From: Methanohalophilus sp.
GTDB taxonomy: Archaea > Halobacteriota > Methanosarcinia > Methanosarcinales > Methanosarcinaceae
Length of the DNA: 64,000 nucleotides
Assembly (NCBI RefSeq): GCF_030156785.1
Contig: NZ_JASGLW010000005.1
Coordinates: 1-64,000, forward strand
Direction of reading: 5' to 3'
Part shown: positions 6,353-12,017 of the stretch, piece after piece
How the letters are laid out: each line of letters starts with the position of its first letter
Position numbering within the stretch: position 1 is the stretch's first letter
Position numbers and translations under genes: made by a program
The notes under the pieces: model-generated
Told to the model about the DNA's origin: nothing
Databases searched by the model: none
The model's input: only the letters and a program-made list of their open reading frames with translations

Positions 6353-7054
6353 TTAATTTCCGCAATGAATTGATTTTTTACCATTTTCACCTATGATAAC
6401 AACCGTTGGTACCACATGGCATGCAATAGAAGCTAATTCCTCCATCTCATTCCACGAAGGTACGGGATCTGAATAATCTTTAAAAGGAAGATCAAAATCA
6501 GGATTACTCAAAAATTGATACAGAAGAACTTCCGAAGCCCCCTCTAACAATGGAATAACCTTCTCAAATCGTTTTCCTGTTACATAGCCGGGAATCAAGC
6601 GTATCCATATTCTGAGCCATTTATTCTTTGCCAATTCAAGGGATTTTGAAAGATTTGCTACATATTTATCCACTCTGTCCTCAGGCATTCCGGTTAATTC
6701 CGCAAGGGAAGCAGTATCATCCATTGGTGCTTTCAACTCAAGAACAAAACCTTTCACATAGGGCATTGCTAGCTCCAGAACTTCAGGTTTCATGCCATCA
6801 GATTTCAATAGCGTTTCGACACCAAGCCGATCCAGTTCTTCGATCAAAGACATCAAATCTTTTTGGATAGTGGGTTCTGCACCTCCAAGAAAAACCTTTT
6901 GTGCATCGGAATCTCTGACAAAATCTATAATCTGATCAATCGAATACTCTTCAAATGGCTGGGTAATGTGTACACAGTATGGACATTTGAGATTACAACC
7001 AAAAAATTCCAGTCTTACTTCACCATTGTTTTCAGATAAGTTAATTAAACGCAT
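6353..7054 (-). CDS. Radical SAM protein, PflA-like archaeal type
   Basis: 233 residues. The [4Fe-4S]/SAM motif CNLKCPYC (CX3CX2C) is at about residues 20-27. It is followed by a variant glycine motif LGGAEPTIQ where GGEP is usual. The barrel part reads VETLLKSDGMKPEVLE and FVLELKAPMDD. It resembles pyruvate-formate-lyase-activating-enzyme-like proteins, whose radical target I cannot name. ATG 7054 has a GAGGTAAT ribosome site. The gene is monocistronic and divergent from the 99-residue gene. The product probably makes a 5'-deoxyadenosyl radical; the substrate is unknown. Confidence 0.75.
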   Translation of the reverse strand: MRLINLSENNGEVRLEFFGCNLKCPYCVHITQPFEEYSIDQIIDFVRDSDAQKVFLGGAEPTIQKDLMSLIEELDRLGVETLLKSDGMKPEVLELAMPYVKGFVLELKAPMDDTASLAELTGMPEDRVDKYVANLSKSLELAKNKWLRIWIRLIPGYVTGKRFEKVIPLLEGASEVLLYQFLSNPDFDLPFKDYSDPVPSWNEMEELASIACHVVPTVVIIGENGKKSIHCGN

Positions 7055-7190: not shown

Positions 7191-7490
7191 ATGCTAAAAA
7201 AGCTTACTCTGGAAGACCTCAAAAGAAGTAAAGATAAACAACAGGCATCAGACTCGAGTGATATCCTAGAAGGACTTTACGATCTCATTATCCCGCCGGG
7301 AACGCCATCATATATAATATATGATCTGGTAGAGGAATTTGATCTCGAGCCCCTTGAACGCAAAATTAATGTGAATATCGTGGAATGTGAGGAAAGGGAG
7401 GTAATTGTATTAAGAGGTAAACTTGAAACTGTTCAGGAAGCCGAAAAATACCTTCATCAGGAACTCAATGCGTACGTGAATTCTGATTAA
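7191..7490 (+). CDS. Small conserved-looking protein of unknown function
   Basis: 99 residues, ATG 7191. The N-terminus is basic and polar (MLKKLTLEDLKRSKDKQQ), then comes an ordered part with IIPPGTPSYIIYDLVEEFDLEP and VIVLRGKLETVQEAEKYL. The composition (acidic C-terminal half, no signal, no cysteine pair) suggests a compact cytosolic domain. Codon use matches its neighbours. The stop overlaps the stop of mmp2 on the other strand by 2 nt, so the two are convergent. I do not recognise a named family; a methanogen-specific protein is a guess. Confidence 0.55.
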   Translation: MLKKLTLEDLKRSKDKQQASDSSDILEGLYDLIIPPGTPSYIIYDLVEEFDLEPLERKINVNIVECEEREVIVLRGKLETVQEAEKYLHQELNAYVNSD

Positions 7491-8467
7491 TGAGATTTAA
7501 TACCGGTAATAATGTCTTTCTCAAAGTCAAACACACATGCTTTCTTACCTTCGTACTCAATTTCAAGCTGCAGGGATGACGTGATTACCCCTACTTCAGT
7601 AGCAGTAATCCCTACGTCTTCGAAAGCTTTAATGCAATCACCTACTTTATCCGGCTTTACTGTTACAACATAACCCGTGGCAGGGTAAATTTTCAGCCAC
7701 TGAACCAGAGGCATGGATTCTGGAGATGGTATTTTACTTAGATCGACCTTTGCACCGACGCCACTGGTTTCACAAAGCATTCCAAGAGTACCAATTGTGC
7801 CAGGATTACTGATATCTTTACCGGCAGTCACCAATCCGGCTTCTCCAATATCCTTCATAACAAGATAGCGTGCTTTTACAGTTTCAGCATCCTTAAATGA
7901 AGTAGTATCCCAGCTGTAAGGCGAATTTTCTCCCACCTTGCCATCAAGATCATAGGCCAAAATGATTGCGTCTCCTGCGGATGCGGTATCACTGCGGATA
8001 AGAGAATCCTTGCGGGCAATACCTATTATGGCAACAGCAAGTGAATTATACGGAGTATCTGGATGCATATGTCCACCGACCATGGGAACACCGAACTTGC
8101 GAATACCTTCACGCATGCCTTCAAGCATCTCATTTGAAACATCCTCATCACTTGAAGACATGACATTCACCATCGCAAGAGGTCGGCCCCCCATCGCGGA
8201 AATATCATTTACATTTACAACAATTGAAGTATATCCTGTCCACCAGGGACTTGCATCTACTATTTTTCCCCATATCCCGTCTGCCGCAAAAAGAATTACC
8301 TCGTCGCTGCCAATATCAATTACCGCAGCGTCATCTCCCATATCCACAATAGTTCCAGAATATTCCGACTGCACATCCTCAAACATCCTAGCAATATCCG
8401 CAATCGGTTTCTTGCGGACAACCCCTTCAAAATTGCAGAGTTCATGGGCCAAATCATCAAGATTCAA
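7487..8467 (-). CDS. Methanogenesis marker protein 2 (AIR synthase/SelD-like)
   Basis: About 326 residues of the PurM/SelD-type ATP-binding fold. The nucleotide motif VDMGDDAAVIDIG is near residue 42. VNVNDISAMGGRPLAMVNVM and MVGGHMHPDT are the family's following blocks. It belongs to the methanogen-restricted marker 2 family (TIGR03267 as I recall); the substrate is unknown. I chose TTG 8467 (MNLDDLAHEL) because AAAGGTG lies 7 nt upstream; GTG 8476 is the alternative. It is the last gene of the queC-to-mmp2 run, 18 nt after nifB from this start. Confidence 0.82.
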   Translation of the reverse strand: MNLDDLAHELCNFEGVVRKKPIADIARMFEDVQSEYSGTIVDMGDDAAVIDIGSDEVILFAADGIWGKIVDASPWWTGYTSIVVNVNDISAMGGRPLAMVNVMSSSDEDVSNEMLEGMREGIRKFGVPMVGGHMHPDTPYNSLAVAIIGIARKDSLIRSDTASAGDAIILAYDLDGKVGENSPYSWDTTSFKDAETVKARYLVMKDIGEAGLVTAGKDISNPGTIGTLGMLCETSGVGAKVDLSKIPSPESMPLVQWLKIYPATGYVVTVKPDKVGDCIKAFEDVGITATEVGVITSSLQLEIEYEGKKACVFDFEKDIITGIKSH

Positions 8468-8485
8468 ATTATACACCTTTGCAGG

Positions 8486-9430
8486 TTAGTTTTCAGGATC
8501 TTTTTTCGCATGTTTGTGGCTTTCAATCTTGATAAGATTTCTACGCATTTCACTCATCTGAGATAGATCCTTCCCAAGAAGACCATATGCATCGGAGCGA
8601 CATTGTCTGCAGTGGCTCATCTGCTTTACATACGGTTCACAGGCATCCTGAATAGCTTTTCTCTCTTTGTTCGTAGGAGGTCTCAGGTCTGCAAATGTTG
8701 CCTGCGCAATGAGAGGCATAACATTCATGATGTAAATACCCATTTCACTTAGTTTTTTAGCCACATCTATAATATGATCATCATTGATTCCGGGAATGAG
8801 TACAGTATTAATTTTTACAACAAGACCTGCTTCCACAGCTTGTTTGATCCCTTCAAGCTGGTTTTCAAGAAGAATCGAAGCACCCTCCACTCCGTGGTAA
8901 ACCTTGCCGTCATAAACAACATGATCAATAATTTTAGCACCTATTTTGGGGTCGATTGCGTTCATAGTCACTGTCAGTGTTGAAACTCCGACTCTCAAGA
9001 TGTCCTGCATTTTTTCGGGAAGTGATAGACCGTTTGTGCTGAGACAAAGCGTGACATCAGGGAACTCGTTTTTGACTAACTCAAATGTCTCAAATGTCTC
9101 GTCATTAGCAAGGGGATCTCCGGGCCCTGCTACTGCAACAACCTTGATGAAAGGATACTCTTTCAGAACCTGACGACTTTTTTCAAAAGCCTGCTGTGGA
9201 GATAAGACTTCACTGGTAACCCCCGGTCTGCTCTCGTTAACGCAGTCGTACTTACGATCACAGTAGTTGCACTGGATATTACATTTCGGTGCTACTGCCA
9301 GATGCATCCGCCCGAATTTGTGCTGGGCATTTTTATTATAGCAGGGATGTTCTGCAATTCTTCGGTGAACATCATCGGTAAAATTTACCTCTTCGCACTT
9401 TTCTGGCAGATTATCAGTTTTTTCAGACAA
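8486..9430 (-). CDS. nifB: NifB-type radical SAM protein (FeMo-cofactor core synthesis)
   Basis: About 314 residues, the short archaeal NifB without the C-terminal NifX-like domain. The radical SAM motif CNIQCNYC lies in RMHLAVAPKCNIQCNYCDRKYDC, preceded by the diagnostic HPCYNKNAQHKFGR. The C-terminus has CRQCRSDAYGLLG. NifB makes the 8Fe-9S-C NifB cofactor from two [4Fe-4S] clusters. I chose TTG 9430 since GGAGGA at 9442-9437 lies 6 nt upstream; ATG 9475 has no ribosome site. No other nif gene is in view. Its place between queD and mmp2 suggests a methanogen role beyond nitrogen fixation, which is inference. Confidence 0.88.
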   Translation of the reverse strand: MSEKTDNLPEKCEEVNFTDDVHRRIAEHPCYNKNAQHKFGRMHLAVAPKCNIQCNYCDRKYDCVNESRPGVTSEVLSPQQAFEKSRQVLKEYPFIKVVAVAGPGDPLANDETFETFELVKNEFPDVTLCLSTNGLSLPEKMQDILRVGVSTLTVTMNAIDPKIGAKIIDHVVYDGKVYHGVEGASILLENQLEGIKQAVEAGLVVKINTVLIPGINDDHIIDVAKKLSEMGIYIMNVMPLIAQATFADLRPPTNKERKAIQDACEPYVKQMSHCRQCRSDAYGLLGKDLSQMSEMRRNLIKIESHKHAKKDPEN

Positions 9431-9496
9431 AATATATCCTCCATTTTTAAGGCGTGAACTTATTGGAGCAGCCATAGATATAAGTTTGGGAAAACT

Positions 9497-9859
9497 TTAG
9501 TCAAAACCGTCAATCTGGCACCACTTGCCTTCTCCTTCCCATACTTTCACAGAAACCCGATAAGGCAAGGCATCAGATAAACGGGCATGGATAGCCTCGC
9601 AAAGATTTTCCGAACTTGGAAATTCAAGAATGTCGTTCAGCAAACGGTGATCATATTCTTTCAGGATTTTACGCACAGTACTTTTGATGTCATAGAAATC
9701 CATTACCATGCCAGTTTCCTTTTTCTCACCTTCAATCACAATTTCGGTCTTATACGTGTGACCGTGCACCACTCCGCAGGTTTCATGCCCCGGAAGATAG
9801 TGTGCACTGTCAATGTATTCAATAATTCCGAGTTTCATCTTTGTATTTGCATTTGTCAT
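9497..9859 (-). CDS. queD: QueD/6-pyruvoyltetrahydropterin synthase family enzyme
   Basis: 120 residues from ATG 9859. It has the zinc histidines in DSAHYLPGH and HGHTYK, the catalytic Cys in HETCGVVHGH, and a C-terminal Glu in KVWEGEGKW. In preQ0 synthesis it makes 6-carboxy-tetrahydropterin from dihydroneopterin triphosphate. ATG 9859 overlaps the queE stop as TAATG, and the longer frame upstream lies inside queE, so the short start is right. It is part of the archaeosine-precursor operon. Confidence 0.9.
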   Translation of the reverse strand: MTNANTKMKLGIIEYIDSAHYLPGHETCGVVHGHTYKTEIVIEGEKKETGMVMDFYDIKSTVRKILKEYDHRLLNDILEFPSSENLCEAIHARLSDALPYRVSVKVWEGEGKWCQIDGFD

Positions 9860-10581
9860 TATAAACACCCCCACATCTTGTGAGTCTGGGGAATTATACG
9901 TGTATCTACAATGTCCAGCAGACGATATTGGCAATCCAGCAAAAACGATGGGCTGGCAGCCATGTGTTCCTGTGTCACCGGCTGGAGAATGACACAGCTT
10001 AGATATCTATGAATATCCTCGATAATTAATATTAAGTCATCCATAGACGTTTTTGAGGTAACAACCACTTTACAGAAACAATCACGACAATCCGTATTGC
10101 GAAGAATGCTGAAACATTTTATTGTGTTTTTTAGATGTAACTCTAATTCATCCTCCGGTAAACCTGGATCAAGTTTGACATCACCTGAAACATAACTAAC
10201 TTTATCTTTTACTTTCCTAGCCATGTCCGGAAGTGTCATGTTGCTTTCAAGATAAAGCGGAACATCGGTTGAGAGGGCTGAAATAAAATCAGCATTGAGT
10301 AACGGCTCGCCACCGGTAAGAGATACTGAATGAATTTTGTCGTAGGATTCAATCAACTTATCCACACTTGCAGGACCCATTGGATTTTTCACATGCAAGA
10401 ATGAAATGGGTTTACTAGGGGATTCGTACTTGCAACTGCCCGGAGGCGCAACGGGAGTATCACAGTAACTGCAATTAAGGTTGCAACCTGAAAATCTCAC
10501 AAACGCCTGTCGGACTCCTACATAGGGTCCCTCGCCCTGCACGGCACAAAACACTTCAATCAGGTTTGCTTCCTGGATCAA
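9859..10581 (-). CDS. queE: 7-carboxy-7-deazaguanine synthase QueE
   Basis: 240 residues. A radical SAM enzyme that converts carboxy-tetrahydropterin to 7-carboxy-7-deazaguanine. The N-terminus has the QueE signature EVFCAVQGEGPYVGVRQAFVR, then the cluster motif SGCNLNCSYCDTP and the SAM motif VSLTGGEPLL. An extra Cys-rich segment, NTDCRDCFCK, lies near residue 160. It overlaps DUF366 by 4 nt (ATGA) upstream and queD by 1 nt downstream, which implies coupled translation. Confidence 0.92.
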   Translation of the reverse strand: MIQEANLIEVFCAVQGEGPYVGVRQAFVRFSGCNLNCSYCDTPVAPPGSCKYESPSKPISFLHVKNPMGPASVDKLIESYDKIHSVSLTGGEPLLNADFISALSTDVPLYLESNMTLPDMARKVKDKVSYVSGDVKLDPGLPEDELELHLKNTIKCFSILRNTDCRDCFCKVVVTSKTSMDDLILIIEDIHRYLSCVILQPVTQEHMAASPSFLLDCQYRLLDIVDTRIIPQTHKMWGCL

Positions 10582-11138
10582 AATACCCCCAATTGTCGGG
10601 ATTTTCTTAAGTCGGCTTCAATGTCTTCTATTTCAAAAACATATTTTTTGGAAACCACATCCATCAGGTTCACTGCTTGCTTCTCGGTCATGCCAGCATC
10701 CTTAAGATTTCCATAGAAATCATGGGAGACATTTACGCCAAAATGTATTTTTTGGGAAATAGCAGAAGTGCTTGCTATTGATACCGACAGTTTCTTTCCA
10801 TCTACGAAAAGATCGTCCCCCTTCCGTTCCACTGCGATTCCTTTATCTGTTAGCACTGAAGCAAAAATAGTAGCTAGCAAGCGTTGTCTGGCATAAACAA
10901 GTTTAAGATCGGTAGAATCAAAGTGTTCCACTATAAAATGCAGCATGTCCGGCGATTCAATCGATTCGTTTTGCCTGCGGTCTTCCAGATCAATCATATG
11001 CTCAGGGAAAACATCACATGCACCCCTGAAAGCGATTATTGAATCAGATTGGATTCCAAAAGCCGAATAGGCCCAGAGTGATGATATTTGACTACCGTCG
11101 TAATCGATTCTCTTATCCATGACATAAGCTTCTATCAT
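10578..11138 (-). CDS. DUF366 family protein in the preQ0 operon
   Basis: 186 residues. Conserved blocks of the archaeal DUF366 family are IDYDGSQISSLWAYSAFGIQSDSIIAFRGACDV, IDLEDRRQNESIESPDMLHFIVEHFD and HFGVNVSH. The biochemical role is not known. It overlaps queC (ATGA) and queE (ATGA), so it is translated in step with both. That argues for a role in 7-deazaguanine synthesis or its regulation, which is inference from context. No signal peptide or membrane segment. Confidence 0.8.
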   Translation of the reverse strand: MIEAYVMDKRIDYDGSQISSLWAYSAFGIQSDSIIAFRGACDVFPEHMIDLEDRRQNESIESPDMLHFIVEHFDSTDLKLVYARQRLLATIFASVLTDKGIAVERKGDDLFVDGKKLSVSIASTSAISQKIHFGVNVSHDFYGNLKDAGMTEKQAVNLMDVVSKKYVFEIEDIEADLRKSRQLGVF

Positions 11139-11827
11139 TGGCTTATACCCTCCGTTTCAGCAAACAGTGGATCAGCCCTTCCGATTTTTTCAAACGCAAG
11201 AGAGCGTCTTTTACAGCTTTCACAAACCCCGCATGGATCAGGACCTGATGCATAACAACTCCAACTCCATTTAAGCGGTGCATCATTTTCCAGAGATGTT
11301 TTTACGATAGATTCTTTATCCATGCCGAGCAATGGAGCATAAACTTTCACGCCTTTAAGAGTAGAATATGTGAAAAAAAGGTTTGCGGCATCCACAAATT
11401 TAGGAGAATTGTCTGGGAAAGTCGCTGCTTCTTCTGCATTGAAACCGACAATAATAAATTCACAATCCATTGTTTCAGCGAAACATGCTGCAATATTCAG
11501 CATCAAACCATTGCGATTCGGAACCCACACTGATGCTGCAGTTTTTGTTGCTGTTTCAGAGAAAAGGTCCTTAGTCGAAGGTTCAGGTAATGATTTCTCT
11601 TTGTTCACAAGAGATGTAGTTGTTATAGCTTCCAGCCAACCAAGCTGGATGGTTTTGTGGATGATGTTATAGTGATCACATATTTTTTTAGAAAAGGATT
11701 TCTCAATCGCTGCGGAACGTTGACCATAATCAAAAGTTAGTGCAAGGGCGATGTCCATTTTTTTCTTTGCAATCGCAAGAGCTGCTACTGAGTCCAGCCC
11801 ACTGCTCAAAAGACATATCCCTTTCAA
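11135..11827 (-). CDS. queC: 7-cyano-7-deazaguanine synthase QueC
   Basis: About 230 residues. ATP-dependent conversion of 7-carboxy-7-deazaguanine to preQ0. The PP-loop motif is LLSSGLDSVAAL near the N-terminus (Ser-Ser-Gly rather than Ser-Gly-Gly). The C-terminal zinc site reads CYASGPDPCGVCESCKRRS. I chose TTG 11827 because GGAGGA at 11839-11834 lies 6 nt upstream; TTG 11833 would touch that site. It is the first gene of the operon queC-DUF366-queE-queD-nifB-mmp2. Confidence 0.92.
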   Translation of the reverse strand: MKGICLLSSGLDSVAALAIAKKKMDIALALTFDYGQRSAAIEKSFSKKICDHYNIIHKTIQLGWLEAITTTSLVNKEKSLPEPSTKDLFSETATKTAASVWVPNRNGLMLNIAACFAETMDCEFIIVGFNAEEAATFPDNSPKFVDAANLFFTYSTLKGVKVYAPLLGMDKESIVKTSLENDAPLKWSWSCYASGPDPCGVCESCKRRSLAFEKIGRADPLFAETEGISQ

Positions 11828-12017
11828 AATCAATCCTCCGGCTATTACCCCAGTATTCTTTAAAGGTTATTTATAGGTATCTAACCTTATAAATGACAAT
11901 AGCCTTCATATCGTTCCATCGGATGATTTATAACAAGCGAATTATAGATCGAAAGGAGATATAATCCATCTACTACATTATACAGATGTATTATTTTTGT
12001 GTACCTGCTCTCCTATA

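Follow-up and report, generated by a model that had tools for sequence, protein, structure and literature searches.

The nifB–mmp2 gene pair of Methanosarcinaceae and a promoter-like element that may set it apart from the neighbouring preQ0 genes

Why does a methanogen in whose genome no nitrogenase gene was found carry nifB, and what joins this gene to the genes for preQ0 synthesis on one side and to mmp2 (methanogenesis marker 2) on the other? The window, by which we mean the whole stretch of 64,000 nucleotides (nt) analysed, belongs to a Methanohalophilus-like genome of the family Methanosarcinaceae (1.55 Mb, 94.6% complete) and carries the six genes on one strand. An earlier, sequence-only reading had taken them for a single fused unit. 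We consider two adjacent transcription units more likely than one, the putative promoter of the second being an element conserved in the queD–nifB spacer. The reading that we favour, with rather better than even confidence, is of a que operon beside a bicistronic nifB–mmp2 unit with its own promoter, in which NifB would provide a cluster for the activation of methyl-coenzyme M reductase (MCR) and Mmp2 most likely an ATP-dependent step. The features concerned are these:

11870–11877, minus strand: TATA-like box CCTATAAA upstream of queC, putative promoter of the que block.
11135–11827, minus strand: queC (7-cyano-7-deazaguanine synthase), first gene of the que block; TIGR00364, 174 bits (cut-off 150.3); PF06508.
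10578–11138, minus strand: DUF366 protein, second gene of the que block; PF04017, 246 bits.
9859–10581, minus strand: queE-like radical S-adenosylmethionine (SAM) protein, matched only below the curated QueE cut-offs (best NCBIfam model TIGR03963, 63 bits); PF04055 over cut-off.
9497–9859, minus strand: queD (6-carboxytetrahydropterin synthase); TIGR03367, 93.7 bits (cut-off 89.25).
9477–9491, minus strand: conserved element TCCCAAACTTATATC of the queD–nifB spacer, resembling a TFB-recognition element (BRE) and TATA box, putative promoter of nifB–mmp2.
8486–9430, minus strand: nifB, short form without the NifX domain, 314 residues; TIGR01290, 375.5 bits (cut-off 343.65).
7487–8467, minus strand: mmp2, resembling aminoimidazole ribonucleotide (AIR) synthase, ThiL and HypE; TIGR03267, 474.6 bits (cut-off 365).

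The sequence-only reading described the genes, their strand, the overlaps and the spacers correctly, and open reading frames and family models agree. The overlaps in the que block are of 4 nt (queC/DUF366), 4 nt (DUF366/queE) and 1 nt (queE/queD); the spacers measure 66 nt between queD and nifB and 18 nt between nifB and mmp2. The claim that TTG starts with good ribosome sites open queC, nifB and mmp2 holds for nifB and queC, each of which has a strong GGAGG site, and is less secure for mmp2, whose TTG, kept in most but not all aligned relatives, has a weaker AAGGTG site and a competing GTG at 8476. In a literature search of one paper collection for DUF366, the titles and abstracts listed dealt with domains of longer name, DUF3669 for example, or with other topics.

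The argument for a second unit begins with gene order. Adjacency was counted over 34 Methanosarcinaceae loci, with the same orientation required and only loci with enough flank included. By this count nifB and mmp2 are adjacent in 33 of 33 loci, a linkage that exceeds chance. In a wider phylum sample the two genes are together in 39 of 39 family genomes, 17 of them with gaps of 99–889 nt, and of the 50 named loci from the family that have 1.5 kb or more of sequence before mmp2, 49 have nifB there, four more being too short upstream. The three adjacencies within the que block are kept in 28 of 28 loci each. The que block is joined to nifB through queD in 27 of 32 loci; this neighbourhood is not accidental in Methanosarcinaceae, and the lack of conserved linkage that would have spoken against the sequence-only reading was not found. 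In the other five the que block is not beside nifB, yet nifB–mmp2 is intact: in L095 it lies about 2 kb further away, and in L079, L080, L081 and L093 no que gene was found in the locus stretch. When one paper collection was searched by the name Mmp2, none of the entries listed described the nifB–mmp2 pair.

The remaining neighbours are kept to differing degrees: mmp2–orf99 in 26 of 30 family loci, orf99–radical-SAM gene in 15 of 24, queC–alanine dehydrogenase in 6 of 24, alanine dehydrogenase–NYN-like gene in 9 of 10 and NYN-like gene–mptN in 2 of 6. The open reading frame orf99 (7191–7490) matched no family in NCBIfam or Pfam. Further downstream, at 6353–7054, lies an additional radical SAM protein (NrdG2-like, below cut-off) that adjoins the convergent orf99. 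In some large-genome family members two nifB genes stand in tandem before mmp2, as in G017 (L082, 9729–12056, the two 71% identical), G174, G256 and L193.

The second line of evidence lies in the spacer. The gaps between queD and nifB matches, of 68–412 nt, share a short element of the approximate form CCA(A/C)AA-Y-N-TATATC, which reads as an archaeal BRE and TATA box; in the window it sits 46 nt before the nifB TTG. Among the 450-nt regions preceding nifB, 28 of the 37 from the family contain the pattern (shuffling gives an expectation of 0.6 over all 48 regions). Upstream of mmp2 it occurs in 0 of 47, as expected if mmp2 depends on the nifB promoter; the counts for the other genes are 0/29 each for queD, queE and DUF366, 1/30 for queC, 0/30 for orf99 and 0/16 for the radical-SAM gene. 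The sole exact match of TCCMMAAYNTATATC in its own genome is the element in the queD–nifB spacer, and each of the eight genus genomes has a single copy of the exact 15-base pattern, placed at nifB; of 23 family genomes, 14 have it there. If one mismatch is tolerated, chance would give 0.43 occurrences of such a pattern in the window, so that the case for the element rests on its conservation. Of the five loci in which the que block is not beside nifB, L079 retains the element at nifB, and the pattern was not matched in the remaining four.

Of the promoter and terminator between queD and nifB that the sequence-only reading named as evidence against itself, we thus have a promoter-like element, recognised by sequence, and no terminator-like site (6 in the scanned sequence, 3.7 expected). 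The same scan gave 9 sigma-70 promoter-like sites against 11.6 expected, which were not used, as that consensus does not apply to archaea. A regulon sharing the nifB element was considered and rejected: 36 genomes contained 21 matches, of which 14 are at nifB, and the other seven are close to the rate of the reversed control (10). Those seven adjoin what we take to be P-II/amt and carA genes, cobalamin-type and homocitrate-synthase-like genes, sensor kinases and unassigned reading frames; two loci of a sister family (L125 and L126) carry a nifB-type element once each between what are presumably a P-II/amt pair and carA, which may be chance.

What NifB would do in this organism can be approached through the rest of the genome. 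The statement that no nitrogenase gene is in view was borne out genome-wide, where the one NifD/NifH-like pair found was CfbD/CfbC. The sole NifD-type match at 1e-15 scores 551 bits to CfbD (TIGR03282); the NifH-type gene beside it is CfbC (NF033200, 427.5 bits) and the third gene there CfbB (673 bits), assignments that place this Nif-like pair in F430 synthesis. NifDK, which a nitrogenase system requires, was not found in the genome at its 94.6% completeness. The genes mmp7 and mmp3 are present, about 3 kb apart on another contig. Among 246 phylum genomes at least 85% complete, related to one another so that Fisher values overstate their independence, nifB is present in 138 of the 143 with mcrA. 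By class it occurs in 82 of 83 genomes with both mcrA and a NifDK-like match, 56 of 60 with mcrA alone, 9 of 13 with a NifDK-like match alone and 11 of 90 with neither; nifB follows MCR more than nitrogenase. In seven family genomes that do have NifDK-like matches at 1e-40, those matches lie no closer than 34 kb to nifB–mmp2 or are on a different contig. The pair is intact in these seven, as in family genomes lacking such matches, so that its linkage is independent of nitrogen fixation.

Published work already explains nifB without nitrogenase in outline. In the report on the MCR activation complex (PMC12176620), three [8Fe-9S-C]-like clusters are bound by McrC and Mmp7, NifB is called probably involved in forming them and is cited as essential in methanogens without nitrogenase, and Mmp genes followed by nifB are described in Methanothermobacter marburgensis. 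A role for nifB in methanogenesis cofactor assembly, which the sequence-only reading had offered as possible, is supported by this account (PMC12176620), by the gene content of the genome and by the distribution of nifB with mcrA. NifB most likely supplies the L-cluster-like clusters of the activation complex.

The partner gene is less familiar. Both AIR-synthase domains, N- and C-terminal, were found in 21 of 21 Mmp2 relatives. The AlphaFold model (mean predicted local distance difference test score 90.3) matches ThiL, PurL, HypE and SelD in a Foldseek search of the PDB. The ATP-binding-type motifs GDDAA and NDI.AMG are invariant in 21 sequences. The protein scores far below the equivalog cut-offs of HypE (23.3 against 251.6 bits), SelD (73.1 against 125) and ThiL (93.3 against 184.15), and its nearest other named family is sll0787 (TIGR04049, 292 bits, cut-off 321.3), which we take to be the AIR-synthase gene of the Nit1C cluster. 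No assigned function for Mmp2 was found; it is probably an ATP-using protein of unassigned substrate.

Outside the family the neighbours of 11 nifB loci and 28 mmp2 loci were clustered. The F430 gene cfbB lies near mmp2 in 6 of 38 outside loci (L102, L107, L109, L185, L186 and L192; one record, L108 = L210, is counted twice among the 38) and in 0 of 35 family loci. The six belong to a sister group of the anaerobic methanotroph (ANME-2) type, and in them cfbB, encoded on the opposite strand, is separated from mmp2 by some 1.5–4.5 kb in which further genes lie; that of L192 was confirmed by its model (639 bits). The recurrence gives weak support to an MCR-related role. In two Methanoperedens-type genomes (L108, 5988–8147, and L105) mmp2 is immediately preceded, in the same orientation, by queA and a queuosine-type tgt, those of L108 confirmed over cut-off; with these, mmp2 has deazaguanine-related neighbours in a family other than Methanosarcinaceae too.

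These observations can be assembled as follows. One unit would be the preQ0 operon queC–DUF366–queE–queD and the other a bicistronic nifB–mmp2 with its own conserved promoter. NifB would make an [8Fe-9S-C] cluster (NifB-co, L-cluster) to be used by McrC and Mmp7 in the electron path by which the F430 of MCR is reduced; this destination is suggested because the genome search turned up no nitrogenase. Mmp2, a member of the PurM superfamily with ATP-binding-type motifs, would most likely carry out a step that requires ATP, in the synthesis, transfer or insertion of the cluster or in MCR activation generally. As a tentative extension, to which we give clearly less than even credence, Mmp2 might be a dedicated, HypE-like, ATP-using maturase that acts with NifB to make or deliver [8Fe-9S-C] clusters, nifB–mmp2 then being the core of a pathway that predates nitrogenase use.

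Several observations weigh against the two-unit reading and its partnership of Mmp2 with NifB. The link rests on one family: the genes are apart in 17 of 17 genomes of the same order outside Methanosarcinaceae in which both were placed (in 16 of these on different contigs, so that broken assemblies could hide some adjacencies), in each of the 34 further phylum genomes for which the listed matches put both genes on one contig (nearest 14 kb), and in all 18 named non-family loci whose flanks were long enough, a set made up of ANME-2, Methanoperedens and records whose names go no further than the order or read simply archaeon. Within the family one named locus, L197, lacks nifB upstream of mmp2; upstream fragments there resemble, by eye, a transposase. 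The element pattern was not matched in 9 of the 37 family nifB regions, nor in any of the 11 outside the family. Large-genome members, several named Methanosarcina, with one nifB have a nifB–mmp2 gap of about 540–1200 nt and, in some, TATA-like sites, which makes co-transcription doubtful there. The activation-complex report (PMC12176620) nowhere names Mmp2. Furthermore, 22 of 161 genomes with an mmp2 match at 1e-45 have no mcrA match. Eleven of these belong to a single family, f9, whose listed matches score below the TIGR03267 cut-off; three of the 22 (G100, G184 and G272) score over it; some are of families that otherwise have mcrA and may reflect assembly gaps. The partnership is the simplest prediction from a neighbourhood seen in one family's gene order, and the reading as a whole is a prediction from sequence.

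Those 22 genomes also qualify the description of mmp2 as methanogen-only, which fits its presence in 139 of the 143 genomes with mcrA and does not hold strictly; this concerns the label, not the identity of the window gene as Mmp2. In f9 genomes without an mcrA match, such as G080, G087 and G093, a weaker mmp2 homologue is seen (E-values 1e-85 to 1e-96).

Confinement to one family is also what would be seen if the neighbourhood were neutral, its order fixed in the ancestor of Methanosarcinaceae and preserved by slow rearrangement, with Mmp2 unrelated to NifB. The conserved order may reflect inheritance, since orf99–mmp2 and the alanine dehydrogenase–NYN-like pair are also well kept. We think this explanation unlikely, if a serious competitor: nifB–mmp2 (33/33) is kept better than orf99–mmp2 (26/30), the radical-SAM pair (15/24) or queC–alanine dehydrogenase (6/24), and the absence of the element upstream of mmp2 is as expected for a gene that depends on the nifB promoter.

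A single polycistronic unit, in which the preQ0 genes would be transcribed together with nifB and mmp2 to meet some shared requirement, for instance iron–sulphur or SAM supply, draws on the six closely spaced genes of one strand, on the missing terminator-like site, on the que block adjoining nifB far more often (27/32) than queC adjoins its other neighbour (6/24), and on the queA and tgt genes before mmp2 in the Methanoperedens-type genomes. Against it stand the conserved element between queD and nifB, queD–nifB gaps of 344–412 nt in five loci, the 5 of 32 loci in which nifB–mmp2 is retained away from the que block, and a different TATA-like box upstream of queC, where boxes of the TATAAATAATA type occur in several relatives. 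The fused unit is therefore probably wrong, and we rate it as more doubtful still than neutral inheritance. Of the three proteins said in the sequence-only reading to use or serve radical chemistry, only NifB, whose sole Pfam domain is Radical_SAM, and QueE are radical-SAM proteins by Pfam among the six. We found no functional tie of nifB–mmp2 to preQ0 synthesis and no shared chemistry.

A nitrogenase or similar enzyme that escaped detection and that NifB would serve is very improbable: a gene could be missing from a genome 94.6% complete, and 91 of 158 nifB genomes do have a NifDK-like match, but PF00148 at 1e-40 found no match in this genome or in the phylum sample's five other members of the genus, all seven genus relatives searched have just one short PF00148 match each, like the window genome's own CfbD, and nifB–mmp2 is intact in family genomes with and without NifDK-like matches.

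What is new in the two-unit reading is modest, namely that nifB and mmp2 form a pair throughout the family and have a promoter-like element of their own. The proposed MCR role gives a reason for the retention of nifB in methanogens without nitrogenase. The pair yields the prediction that Mmp2 acts with NifB. This prediction can be tested in genetically tractable Methanosarcina, and the function of Mmp2 thereby becomes testable.

Comparison with known systems places both proteins. Mmp2 shares with HypE, ThiL, SelD and PurM of the AIR synthase superfamily the fold, the N- and C-terminal AIR-synthase domains and the invariant GDDAA; it differs from them in sequence, with 15–24% identity in the best 50 structural matches listed and scores far below the equivalog cut-offs. 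NifB matches solved NifB structures over nearly its full length (PDB 6y1x, 393.5 bits; 7bi7 and 7jma, 271–272 bits) and has the cluster-ligating cysteines of CX3CX2C (C50, C54 and C57) and of the C-terminal CRQC (C274 and C277); it is predicted to make the [8Fe-9S-C] cluster. Unlike the nitrogenase cofactor maturase, it is encoded in a genome in which no nitrogenase was found, and beside mmp2 instead of nif genes. In the Nit1C cluster an AIR-synthase gene is likewise clustered with a radical SAM gene (PMC1199592); that is a bacterial nitrilase cluster with a different radical SAM family. The MCR activation complex of McrC, Mmp7, Mmp17, Mmp3 and A2 differs in that nifB here stands beside mmp2 and on another contig than mmp7 and mmp3; it resembles the present case in the presence of those two genes and in holding L-cluster-like clusters that NifB probably makes (PMC12176620).

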